34,158 bases of DNA, taken from Acidobacteriaceae bacterium (GTDB taxonomy: Bacteria > Acidobacteriota > Terriglobia > Terriglobales > Acidobacteriaceae). The stretch's first letter is position 1. Every line of letters starts with the position of its first letter. Made by a program: the position numbers and the translations under genes. This document shows, piece after piece, positions 4,982 through 9,007 of this stretch. The notes beneath the pieces are model-generated. The model saw nothing but the letters and a program-made list of their open reading frames with translations. It searched no databases and was not told the origin of the DNA. Location: assembly GCA_003165795.1 (NCBI GenBank), contig PMWW01000184.1, forward strand, positions 1 through 34,158. The letters are read 5' to 3'.

Positions 4982-6010
4982 TCACTTTTCCGTGACAGTC
5001 TCGACCGGCGCCATGTGCGGGTCCGGCTTCCGCGTCTTTGACTTTAATCGGCTGAGCGCCGCCACTGGAGACGCAAAGGTCATGGGCTTGTCGCCGCTGT
5101 GGACGCGCAGGAGGTGATAAGTCAGCAGCAATTGGGTTATTGCCAGCGGATCGCTGTGCCGCACCTCGTTGCGATCGTTATAGTCGCCGAACTGGTCAGC
5201 CCGCAGCGGACGCAAGTCGGGCAGGTGTTGCCAGATCGCATCTTCCAACTTAGTGGATTGTTCCCGGGTAACGCCGCCGTGCACATCGAGAAAGTCTACC
5301 GGGCGGCCACAGTCGCGGCCCAGTTGCATACGAACGCCGCCCTCGGCGCCGTGAGTGTTGTCGAGCAGATAGGTCAGGTCGGGATGGGGAATCGTGGGAC
5401 GCAAGACGAGCCGAACATTCAAACAGCCATCGGCCGCCTCGGGGGCTACGCCGAGGTCAGGAGAAAACTGTACAACGATGTCGGCGAATTCGCGCTGCGG
5501 ACGAATAAACTCGCGCGAGTCCGCTTCCCGCCTCTCCATTTCCGCCCGCACTTGTTCGCCAGTGTAACCCCGCTTGGTGGTATCTCGCTTGATCTTCCAC
5601 ACGCGCCTTAGGTCTTCGGGCGGATCCAGGTATACCTTCACGTCATAGAACTGCCGCAGGGTAGCGCTGTGGAAGCCGTGCAGCCCTTCCACAATGACGA
5701 ATTCGCGCGGCTCCACATATTCGGGCCGCACCAGCGAGCCGGTGCTGTGGTCGTACACCGGCTTCAGCATGGACTGGCCGTAGTGTGCACGCTCCAGGTG
5801 CAGTTCCAGGATGTCGAGATAATTGCAGTCCGGATGCAGCGGGGTGATATTAAGCCGGGCCCGCTCCTGCCGATCATACTTATGATAATCGTCGGTGCAG
5901 ACATGCGAGACGCGGTCGGGGCCGAGCAACTGCGTCAGTCCCTTGGTGATGGTGGTCTTGCCGGCCGCGCTATCGCCTACAATACCCAAAAGTATAGGGC
6001 GTTGCGTCAT
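4982..6010 (-). CDS. prk: Phosphoribulokinase
   Basis: PRK converts ribulose-5-phosphate and ATP to ribulose-1,5-bisphosphate, the RuBisCO substrate. The 342-residue protein starts with a P-loop (GDSAAGKTT, residues 12-20), then has [10 protein letters not shown] with the catalytic-type acid and the basic binding residues, [11 protein letters not shown], and the strand-acid motif VIVEGLHGF. These place it in the PRK/uridine-kinase family. Length and the pattern DDYH...R...KPxYxHxTG look closer to the plant/cyanobacterial class II than to the ~290-residue class I enzymes of proteobacterial cbb operons; that subclass call is by eye. The start ATG overlaps the cbbX stop (ATGA), so the two are translationally coupled. 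It is the last gene of the operon. The C-terminal ~60 residues are variable and basic. Confidence 0.94.
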
Positions 6011-6975
6011 GACCTTTCCTTTCTCGCCGGAGGGGTTTCACATTCGGTGTGCAAACCCCTCTGAAAAACGCGGCTCTGGTGGATGTCGGCCGCGTCAATG
6101 CGAATCAATTCCGCCTTAGGGATACTGCCTCCATCCCTGACCAACCGGTTGGCTTGGCGCAGCTTGATGCGGTCGATGGCATTACGCACGCTGCGCGCGT
6201 TGGCAAAATGTGGCTGCTCGATCCGCAACTTCAGGTATTCCGCGAACGCCTGCCGTGACTTCTCGTCGAAGGCATACCCTTGCTTGCCCACCATCAATTC
6301 GGCGATGGCCAACAATTCTTCGGGCGCGTAATCGGGAAAGTCGATGTGGTGCGCGATGCGGGAATGGAAACCGGGATTGTATTGGAAGAAGGTTTCCATT
6401 CGCTCCTTATAGCCGGCCAGGATGATCACCAGGTCTTCGCGCTGGTTTTCCATGACCTGCAGCAGGATCTCGATGGCCTCGGGACCGTAATCGCGCTCAT
6501 TTTCGGGGCGATACAAGTAGTACGCTTCATCGATAAACAGCACGCCGCCCATGGCCCGCTTGAGGACTTCCTTGGTTTTGGGGGCGGTATGGCCGACATA
6601 CTGTCCGACGAGATCGTCGCGCGTGGCCACCACCAGATGGCCGCGGCGCACATAACCCATGTGATGCAGCAGCTTCGCCATCCGCATGGCGACGGTGGTC
6701 TTGCCTGTGCCAGGGTGGCCGGTGAACGACATGTGCAAGGTGGGCCGCTCGGTCGATAGCTCCATCTTCTCGCGTAAGCGGGCCACCAGTAGCAACGAGG
6801 CTATCTCCCGGATACGGGCTTTGACCGGCTTGAGGCCGACGAGTTCACTATCTAACTCAGCTAGGACGTCGTCGACATTGGAATCCCGGTGGGCCGCACC
6901 AACGTCGACGAGGCCGTTGTCCGCCTCCCCGGCCAACCCAGGCGCCATCGCCGAATCCAACTTTGGCCCTTCCAT
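6007..6975 (-). CDS. cbbX: CbbX, red-type RuBisCO activase (AAA+)
   Basis: CbbX is a hexameric AAA+ motor that pulls on the RuBisCO large-subunit C-terminus to release inhibitory sugar phosphates from red-type form I enzymes. The 322 residues show Walker [10 protein letters not shown] (about 86-94), the pore-loop motif YVGHTAPKT (126-134), Walker [12 protein letters not shown] (145-155), and the sensor/arginine region with [17 protein letters not shown]. The ATG at 6975 is chosen because GGAGG sits five bases upstream; an in-frame TTG at 6987 overlaps that site. About 40 N-terminal residues precede the AAA+ core. It lies 44 bases after cbbS and overlaps prk by four bases. Its presence fits the red-type assignment of CbbL and CbbS. 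Confidence 0.95.
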
Positions 6976-7019
6976 AACAGCCTCCAAACGATCCCTGGTG
7001 CACTAACGAATGACGCTTT

Positions 7020-7445
7020 TCAGTCCTGAGTTGTGACCCTGTCTTGAGGCTTGCTTTTCGAGTAGGAACGAATCGTGTACTTGATCTGGCGGTCTCGCTC
7101 CTCCGTCCTCTCCAGATAAAAACCGGGCTCGTGCTTGGGGCGGTTCACGATGAAGCTCAACATCGTGGTCTGCCGTCCCTTGGTGCGGTCGTAGCCGTTC
7201 AGTTTGATGTAGTGTTCGGGGAACGTAGCCCGGCACGCATTGATCTCGCGCATGACAGCATCGGGGTCGGTGAGATCGAATATAGGTAATCCCCACATCT
7301 CCCAGTAAACGTTGCGAGGATGGGGATCGTCGGTGTACTCGACGGAAATGGCCCAGCCGTTGACCAGGCAATATTGCGCTTGGGCCTTGATTTCGTCATC
7401 CGTGAAATCGGGCAAATAGGAAAAGGTTCCTTGGGTGATTCGCAT
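7020..7445 (-). CDS. cbbS: RuBisCO small subunit, red-type form I
   Basis: The small subunit caps the large-subunit octamer to form L8S8. The 141-residue product begins [19 protein letters not shown] and contains the typical [16 protein letters not shown] and [10 protein letters not shown] segments. The C-terminal extension ([11 protein letters not shown], then IKYTIRSY) is the beta-hairpin that distinguishes red-type (form IC/ID) small subunits from green-type ones, which lack it. AAAGGA stands about eight bases before the ATG. The gene follows cbbL after a 110-base gap and precedes cbbX. The last ~15 residues are polar and look disordered. Confidence 0.96.
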
Positions 7446-7555
7446 GGTTGGTGTCCTTTCACCAGACCGCCGGAAGCCGGCGTAGCACCGATCCTTTTAG
7501 CCGCGCGGCCCTGTTCAAGTTAGCCGCGCTGCCGGGATGAAGCCGTAGGCCGCGC

Positions 7556-9007
7556 TTAGACCGTGAGAGTGGCGACCGCGTCGGGCACATCCGTGGACTC
7601 GAAGTTATAGGTAACGTCCTTCCACACCTCGAGCGCCTTACGCAGCTCCGGTGACCAGCGCGCAGCGCCTTCCAAAATTTCCGGCCCTTCGTTTAAGTAG
7701 TCGCGACCGTCATTGCGGGCTTGGATGATGGCCTCGACGGCTACCCGGTTGGCGGTGGCGCCTTGGGCGACCCCGTCGGGATGGCCGATCGTGCCTCCTC
7801 CGAACTGCAGCACGCAGTCGTCGCCGAGATAGTGCAGCAGTTGGTGCATCTGGCCGGCGTGGATGCCGCCGGAAGCCACCGGCATTACTCCAGGCATGGA
7901 CCCCCAGTCCTGCTCGAAATACAAACCGAGGCTGGGGTTTACCGCGACCTTATTTTCACGCAGCGTGTCGTAGTAGCCCCGGACCGCGTTGGGATCGCCC
8001 TCCAGCTTGCCCACCACCGTGCCGGCGTGAATATGGTCCACTCCTGCCAGTCGCATCCACTTGGCGATCACGCGGAAGTTGACTCCGTGCGTCTTTTGCC
8101 GGGTGTAGGTGCCATGGCCGGCCCGGTGCAGGTGCAAGATGACGCCGTTGCGGCGGGCCCACTTGGCCATCGACTGGATTGCCGTATAGCCGACCGTCAG
8201 GTCGATCATGATGATCACGCTGCCCAGCTCGCGGGCGAAGTCGGCCCGTTCGTACATTTCCTCCATGGTCCCGGCAGTGACGTTCAGATAATGTCCCTTG
8301 ATCTCGCCAGTGACTGCCATGGCGCGGTTCACCGCTTCCATGCAGAACAGGAAGCGATCGCGCCAGCGCATGAAGGGCTGGCTGTTGATGTTCTCATCGT
8401 CCTTGCTGAAGTCCAGCCCGCCGCGCAGCGCTTCATACACCACGCGACCATAGTTGCGGGCCGATAGACCCAGCTTTGGCTTTATGGTGGCGCCCAGCAG
8501 CGGCCGCCCGAACTTGTTCAGATACTCACGCTCCATCACGATGCCGTGCGGCGGTCCCTGGAAAGTCTTGGTGTAATGGGGAGGAATCCGCATGTCTTCC
8601 AGGCGCAACGATTTGAGGGCCTTGAAGCCGAAGACGTTGCCGATGATCGACGACGTGAGGTTGGCAATCGAGCCTTCCTCAAACAGATCGATATCGTAGG
8701 CGATGTAAGCGATGTATTGGTTGGTGCCGGGTACGGGATCGACGCGATAGCACTTCGCCTGATAATGCTCGTAGGGAGTCAGACGATCGGTCCAGACCAC
8801 CGTCCAGGTGGCGGTGGACGATTCGCCGGCGACCGCGGCCGCGGCTTCGATGGGTTCCACGCTATCGTGCGGCACCAGGCGGAACGCGCACAGGATGTCC
8901 GTGTCCTTGGGCTGGTAGTCGGCATTGTAATATCCCATCTCGGCGTAGGGTGTGACCCCAGCCGCCCAGCGATTTTTCTTTTTGCCCGAAATGTTGGTAC
9001 CTGCCAT
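7556..9007 (-). CDS. cbbL: RuBisCO large subunit, red-type form I
   Basis: This enzyme carboxylates ribulose-1,5-bisphosphate to two 3-phosphoglycerates. The 483-residue frame keeps the whole active site with numbering near that of the plant enzyme: GESSTATW (61-68), K176 and K178 in TIKPKLGLS, the carbamylated K202 with D204/E205 in DFSKDDEN, H294-R295 in LHLHRAG, H327 in DHIHAG, loop-6 K334 in VVGKLEG, S379 in VASGGIHAG, and GG at 403-404. Sequence style ([40 protein letters not shown]) is that of red-type form IC/ID. The ATG at 9007 is preceded by AAGGAG. An upstream in-frame start at 9031 would read through that ribosome site and is rejected. It is first in the operon cbbL-cbbS-cbbX-prk. 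No cbbR regulator is adjacent. Confidence 0.97.

Follow-up and report, generated by a model that had tools for sequence, protein, structure and literature searches.

Does a member of the Acidobacteriota, a phylum common in soils whose members are generally regarded as heterotrophs, carry the key genes of the Calvin cycle, and if so, how did they arrive and what might they be used for? This question is raised by four adjacent genes (cbbL-cbbS-cbbX-prk) on a stretch of 34,158 nucleotides, hereafter the window, which comprises bases 1–34158 of contig C72 (PMWW01000184.1; 40,487 bases) of an Acidobacteriaceae bacterium (GCA_003165795.1). The genome is a 4.95 Mb draft of 208 contigs, with a completeness of 99.35% and a contamination of 0.45%. 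Our analyses suggest that these genes are probably a working Calvin cassette with a RuBisCO (ribulose-1,5-bisphosphate carboxylase/oxygenase) of the form IE clade, laterally acquired within an insert of ~11 kb and most likely giving facultative or mixotrophic CO2 fixation.

The operon itself is real. It occupies positions 4982–9007 on the minus strand, and all four frames are open. The first gene, cbbL (7556–9007), encodes a red-type RuBisCO large subunit of 483 amino acids, assigned by family models, motifs and tree; its start is the ATG at 9007, and the longest listed frame starts with GTG at 9031. CbbL scores 754 bits against NCBIfam PRK04208 (cut-off 438). The small subunit gene, cbbS (7020–7445, 141 amino acids), is matched by PF00101 (5.2e-39), and NCBIfam gives just a weak CcmM domain match (22 bits); residues 1–136 align with the red-type small subunit of Galdieria, the C-terminal extension included. 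It is followed by cbbX (6007–6987), coding for a red-type RuBisCO activase of the AAA+ type (326 amino acids as listed, the start, a TTG, being uncertain). This protein exceeds the cut-off of TIGR02880 (492 vs. 459 bits), contains Walker A/B and the YVG loop, and matches the solved CbbX structures 3syk and 3zuh in a PDB search. The last gene, prk (4982–6010), encodes a phosphoribulokinase (PRK) of the PRK07429 type (411 bits, cut-off 236), and its ATG overlaps the TGA of cbbX (ATGA). There is one RuBisCO-large (PF00016) match in the whole genome.

CbbL contains the motifs KPKLGLS, KDDEN, LHLHR, DHIH, GKLEGDP, VASGG and FGGGT, which presumably hold the active-site residues. The catalytic and loop-6 residues are present, as judged from these motifs and from the invariant columns of ten aligned rows. 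Thus, the complete red-type operon, the active-site residues, the extension of the small subunit, the activase after cbbS and the coupling of prk to cbbX, all claimed in the original prediction from the DNA letters, were recovered. Its description of the unit as self-contained fits insofar as the four genes stand together and fails in that no regulator gene adjoins them. The best PDB matches of the PRK are 9qkn (343 bits, deposited as a uridine kinase) and 9qko (335 bits, a cyanobacteria-specific phosphoribulokinase), and the remaining PRK entries score at most 172 bits. Both the family match and the gene context speak for the predicted PRK function, though this is not the best-studied PRK type, and we found no useful literature on it. 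RuBisCO and PRK, the two key enzymes of the Calvin-Benson-Bassham cycle, are encoded together.

The CbbL tree contained 81 rows (64 of the 80 fetched loci, 15 rows from the family and phylum, and two references). It is a quick tree with SH-aLRT support and no bootstrap; the fetched loci were the best 80 of 559 relatives, with distant forms thinly sampled, and the 16 loci left out were mostly Bradyrhizobium and other Pseudomonadota as well as two Actinomycetota. The window CbbL pairs with that of another genome of its genus, G513 (support 99). All 11 family rows are on one side of a branch with a support of just 76, inside an 18-row set (97) that also includes Chloroflexaceae, Oscillochloris, Methylacidimicrobium, the genome G349 and one metagenome-assembled genome. 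This set is nested in a 62-row set (SH-aLRT 99) holding 40 of the 41 actinobacterial rows, and the window CbbL is apart from C. necator (form IC) and Galdieria (form ID). We take the 62-row set to be form IE, which would make the window enzyme a red-type form I RuBisCO of this clade, one that joins actinobacterial, Chloroflexota and Verrucomicrobiota rows. This assignment is consistent with the phyla named in the available part of Ray et al. (2022; PMC9561532), where form IE is reported from eight phyla, including five Acidobacteriota genomes. Because of these five genomes, the enzyme type is not new to the Acidobacteriota. The parts available of five other papers (PMC9386943, PMC10103415, PMC12322008, PMC7895386 and PMC9802188) name no RuBisCO in this phylum, and our literature search found no paper pairing Sulfotelmatobacter with RuBisCO.

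In the PRK tree (32 rows, matches of at least 38% identity over 250 residues), nine family rows group together (99/98) within a 16-row set (96/99) that adds three Chloroflexota and other acidobacterial rows. The family rows are near Chloroflexota in both trees, which, as the original prediction had proposed, were built for CbbL and PRK alike. Oscillochloris-like Chloroflexota (L079 and L080), a phototrophic host group, have all four genes, arranged as in the window, with CbbL 83% and PRK 72–73% identical to those of the window. The third Chloroflexaceae locus, L081, has prk apart from cbbLSX. A Ktedonobacterales locus (L083) has a 49% identical PRK on the opposite strand. The order cbbL-cbbS-cbbX is common to the window and most fetched loci, and the window differs from the known form IE systems in that prk overlaps cbbX; PRKs in the flanks of the fetched actinobacterial loci are either 45–57% identical (fragments included) or 24–27% matches to the window PRK. 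Form IC operons of Pseudomonadota such as Bradyrhizobium, which are controlled by CbbR, share red-type CbbL, CbbS and CbbX with the window. The fetched Bradyrhizobium CbbL proteins are 73–74% identical to the window CbbL, and PRK matches in the fetched Pseudomonadota flanks are 25–27% or none.

Other acidobacterial sequences fall elsewhere in the CbbL tree. CbbL of G051 lies beside a Sphingomonadales row (80, modest) and that of G349 next to one from Chloroflexaceae (81, modest). The sequences of three genomes of family f13 form a group (100) where the IE set begins, at a basal fork that the tree does not resolve. The two trees place G051 and f13 differently, though the PRK tree lacks pseudomonadal sequences, none of which was similar enough to be included. 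A single acquisition of form I RuBisCO in the phylum was rejected: forcing all 16 acidobacterial rows into one clade gave an approximately unbiased p-value (p-AU) of 3.6e-40 on this quick tree. Several acquisitions within the Acidobacteriota are therefore likely. The f13 loci (L011, L012 and L013) encode long-branched form I enzymes, and genes of one cluster lie near cbbX in L011, where the member is a HAD phosphatase, and in L012.

How common is such a cassette? PF00101 matched in 7 of 396 sampled genomes of the phylum, 6 of them over the cut-off (own genome included), in agreement with the earlier view that form I RuBisCO is uncommon here. CbbL matches were found in 37 of 398 family genomes, and 11 of these are at least 88% identical, counting an 89% fragment cut by a contig end in G454. 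The other 26 genomes have RuBisCO-like proteins with 27–38% identity to CbbL, which, judged from identity alone, are probably form IV. Within the nine genomes of the genus, only the window genome and G513 have CbbL, together with a PRK of at least 92% identity; in the remaining seven, PRK matches are 32–33% or lacking. Three of these seven are 71–82% complete, and the absence is firm for four.

The patchy occurrence within the genus is reflected at the locus. In the window, recJ (10–1518, plus strand, its 5' end cut by the contig; similarity over 1–1474) and the gene for an RDD-domain protein (13329–13967, plus strand; region from ~13290) are 11.8 kb apart. In contrast, they are on one contig and separated by only 187–955 bp in G528, G513, G448, G542, G493 and G566. 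The site is empty in all six informative congeners out of eight; the contig of G554 ends soon after recJ, and G578 has no listed recJ match. The inferred insert, whose edges are approximate (1519–12500), holds two small open reading frames (ORFs) without a Pfam family, an FGGY-family, xylulokinase-like sugar kinase (3183–4706, plus strand, convergent with prk; four relatives have a homologue upstream of cbbL), the cbb operon, and an ADOP-family permease (9504–12443, plus strand; TIGR03434, 741 bits, cut-off 622). Next to it in the right flank is a PEP-CTERM protein gene (12531–13109, minus strand), a homologue of which (38–43%) is present in the gap of G528 and G513; no match to it was found in the other four gaps (187–447 bp). 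The neighborhood is not rigid among congeners: G528, G513 and G566 have lptAC after RDD like the window, and in G448, G542 and G493 it is elsewhere. No integrase or transposase was detected among the insert ORFs scanned, and no pair of direct repeats of at least 20 nt was found at the approximate edges. Repeated, partly palindromic elements at ~2095–2480 and ~4700–4900 bracket the FGGY kinase gene; among the matches listed, they have many imperfect copies (66–97% alike) in the window genome and its congeners.

Chimeric assembly, or the binning of a contig from another organism, would also place such genes beside acidobacterial ones, and both the number of contigs in the draft and the two repeat regions would make room for it. 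Nevertheless, we regard such an artefact as highly improbable: recJ, RDD, lptAC, lptB and rpoN match the genus of the window on both sides of the insert, the nearest kin of the operon is a genus member (G513), and the cbbL of the cassette is found in 11 of 398 family genomes. In addition, the closest repeat copies, among the matches listed, are just 35–81 bases long, G+C is level across the region (0.59–0.61), and contamination is 0.45%. A chimera was rejected on the same-genus flanks, and no chimeric edge was seen. A wrong phylum was rejected as well, based on phylum-type family matches, the CbbL tree and flanks shared with congeners. Three window proteins, clustered at 21704–25750, exceed the acidobact_VWFA cut-off in a profile scan. 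Together with the ADOP match, they uphold the claim that the neighboring genes are typical of the Acidobacteriota, for the two families taken up here, and the host phylum itself.

Comparison with G513 suggests that the cassette has moved. Its operon is on another contig (C130, locus L059) and not between recJ and RDD; this contig resembles the window DNA (89%) only over 4972–9265, the similarity ending at 9265 upstream of cbbL (region 9008–9265, minus strand), and the FGGY homologue is on a separate contig, C142. CbbL is 97.3% identical at the protein level and 80.2% at 4-fold sites (243 sites). Silent identity is 72.4% for cbbX (145 sites), 71.8% for prk (163), 58.7% for cbbS (46) and 70.2% for FGGY (262), vs. 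46.3% for recJ (218), 40.0% for RDD (80), 46.7% for lptAC (345), 57.3% for lptB (110) and 45.4% for rpoN (119). Values for recJ, lptAC and lptB against operon-less congeners are 42.7–53.0%. Silent sites of cbbL appear free to change, because they are only 35.7–51.8% identical between the window and eight other family loci. Since the operon genes are 59–80% identical at silent sites and the flanking core genes only 40–57%, lateral movement is suggested, the simplest reading being that the operon passed between the window and G513 lineages once these had separated, or was recently taken up from a single source. That the cassette is mobile and patchily distributed is the better supported addition of this analysis, and the capacity for CO2 fixation seems to move between members of the group. 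With regard to possible carriers, a search of viral_contigs gave 18 pattern matches and zero relatives, and carriage by a virus was rejected. CbbL was matched by 119 plasmid records (115 at 60–80%, 4 under 60%, best 79%), and a close plasmid copy was thus rejected.

Could the pathway operate in this host? The genome has two transketolases, a transaldolase and a GlpX (class II) fructose-1,6-bisphosphatase (FBPase), all over NCBIfam cut-offs, as well as glucose-6-phosphate isomerase; transketolase and FBPase, which had been suggested as a check, are thus found. We assumed that glyceraldehyde-3-phosphate dehydrogenase, phosphoglycerate kinase, triose-phosphate isomerase, aldolase, epimerase and isomerase are present as central metabolism. 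In the proposed mechanism, the cassette would have come to its site by lateral transfer inside the insert, PRK would make ribulose-1,5-bisphosphate, RuBisCO would carboxylate it, and CbbX would free inhibited RuBisCO. The host transketolases, transaldolase and GlpX phosphatase would help to close the cycle, and reducing power might come from group-3-like NiFe hydrogenases or organic substrates.

PF00374 matches were detected on four contigs of the genome (C136, C60, C140 and C44). Two NiFe large subunits (C136 and C60) carry both Cys motifs, and we read both as group-3-like. The C60 enzyme adjoins a protein of 1052 residues, parts of which resemble NuoF and GltD; the C60 large subunit is nearest to 7t2r and the NAD-reducing 5xf9 in PDB. 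The C136 enzyme adjoins an HdrA-like protein (842 bits against a cut-off of 1100) and two genes that we read, from their order and N-termini, as HdrB and HdrC; this arrangement (8943–15467 of L050) is suggestive of electron bifurcation. The C140 match is, in our reading of its neighbors, NuoD, and the C44 match lacks a CxxC motif. In G513, a four-gene NiFe hydrogenase (8953–13526 of L059) is divergent from the cbb operon; its genes match the sulfhydrogenase beta, gamma, delta and alpha models, in each case with a score below the equivalog cut-off, and its large subunit carries both Cys motifs. H2 is therefore a credible donor in the genus, because the G513 operon is back to back with hydrogenase genes. 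The link between hydrogenase and operon is suggestive only, because hydrogenases are widespread in the family.

Upstream regions of the family loci were also compared. ORFs of 11 loci (window included) were clustered, and one protein cluster is represented upstream of cbbL in 8 of them. The L061 protein of this cluster is a sigma-54 activator; clustering assigned the other seven. In five loci (L063, L064, L065, L067 and L068), no ORF of more than 150 amino acids lies between the activator-cluster gene and cbbL, and the best −24/−12 match in 500 bp beats dinucleotide shuffles (P = 0.003–0.020, uncorrected for 12 tests, as are all these values, and scored with a consensus that we presume to be the usual one). 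The L066 match is also above shuffles (P = 0.017), and no such signal was found in L060, L061, L062, L020, L059 or the window. L063, L064 and L067 are close kin sharing nearly the same site ~250 bp before cbbL. No report of cbb genes controlled by sigma-54 came up in our literature search.

The window copy, unlike these 8 of 11 loci, has neither the activator nor a convincing −24/−12 site, and could be a relic that is decaying after activator loss. We consider this very unlikely, given that the four frames are open, the motifs are intact and protein change is far under silent change relative to G513, and that G513 and L062 likewise have no activator in the stretch read.

Several points weigh against a working cassette used for facultative CO2 fixation after lateral gain. 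The window copy has no adjoining regulator gene or sigma-54 site (P = 0.82). A genome search found no class I FBPase, and sedoheptulose-1,7-bisphosphatase activity of GlpX is assumed. The PF00374 search revealed no NiFe large subunit that we would group as uptake type, and no carbon monoxide dehydrogenase (CODH) large subunit was found in the genome. CO as donor was rejected: the sole MoCoBD protein scores 1023 bits against 4-hydroxybenzoyl-CoA reductase alpha (cut-off 995) and only 288 bits against CODH (cut-off 991). There was no DsrA match either, and sulfur as a donor by this route was rejected on a weak control, as 14 control genomes also had none over the cut-off and the power of the search is unproven. 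The C60 query matches in 325 of 398 family genomes (weak NuoD-like ones included). Among the matches listed, it is at least 66% identical in 2 of 11 carriers (the window genome and G646) vs. 22 non-carriers (G566 with a fragment only), and no tie between RuBisCO and this hydrogenase was found. As for lateral movement, insertion here rather than loss elsewhere follows from parsimony, the silent identity of cbbS (46 sites) is near that of lptB, and codon bias in an expressed operon could reduce silent divergence. The usual partners of form IE, group 1h hydrogenase or CODH, which are common and not defining, were not found in the genome. High-affinity hydrogenases were likewise not detected in the Acidobacteriota form IE genomes, according to the available part of Ray et al. 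(2022; PMC9561532).

An alternative is a role in a mainly heterotrophic cell. RuBisCO and PRK would then serve as an electron sink or to recapture CO2 set free when sugars are broken down, with the FGGY pentulose kinase feeding pentoses towards ribulose-5-phosphate. At least 5 of 12 family loci, the window among them, have an FGGY kinase near the operon, a minimum because contig ends cut several of the stretches short. The window kinase has diverged from G513 at silent sites as little as cbbX and prk have. Among the enzymes looked for, which did not include sox products, the group-3-like hydrogenases are the only lithotrophic ones found. In Ralstonia eutropha, the Calvin cycle is described as re-using CO2 that has been released (PMC4486974, the part available). 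On the other hand, in G513 the kinase is on another contig and hydrogenase genes adjoin the operon instead, and family does not fix the substrate of the kinase (XylB 183 bits, cut-off 380). We judge this alternative rather doubtful, though well worth keeping in view. Facultative (as originally predicted) or mixotrophic fixation is still the most likely role, with a putative energy source: of the hydrogenase and CODH genes that the prediction had named, only the two group-3-like hydrogenases were recovered.

A wider picture is possible, and we offer it tentatively. Within the family, the Calvin cycle may be a swappable accessory module, a form IE cassette passing from site to site and species to species, with its own sigma-54 activator in most carriers instead of a LysR-type CbbR. 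Several carriers would have a pentulose kinase and a histidine-type phosphatase, maybe repairing misfire products, in one species the module would be connected with an NAD(P)-linked NiFe hydrogenase encoded divergently, and the window copy would be a recently moved, activator-less form. If the cassette moves between acidobacterial genomes, CO2 fixation in the phylum would be an accessory trait of scattered occurrence, and taxonomy would not reveal which members have it. Congeners that differ in the insert allow the gain of the cycle to be tested directly. Switching of a cbb operon by sigma-54 would be a further form of regulation, one not found in the literature searched.

Some additional observations were made. 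An Rfam scan of the window gave zero matches, and counts in promoter and terminator scans were at chance level. In L061, L063, L066 and L068, an FGGY kinase gene and then a gene of a second cluster lie upstream of the activator and cbb genes. The L061 member of this cluster, the sole one scanned, is a histidine-phosphatase-family protein; kinase and phosphatase are a possible sugar-phosphate repair pair. Finally, one family genome (G599) has two different cbb operons, L061 on C152 and L062 on C174. CbbX of L062 matches over residues 2–117 only, and C152 also encodes a NiFe large subunit (867–2297) that is 41% identical to the C60 query.

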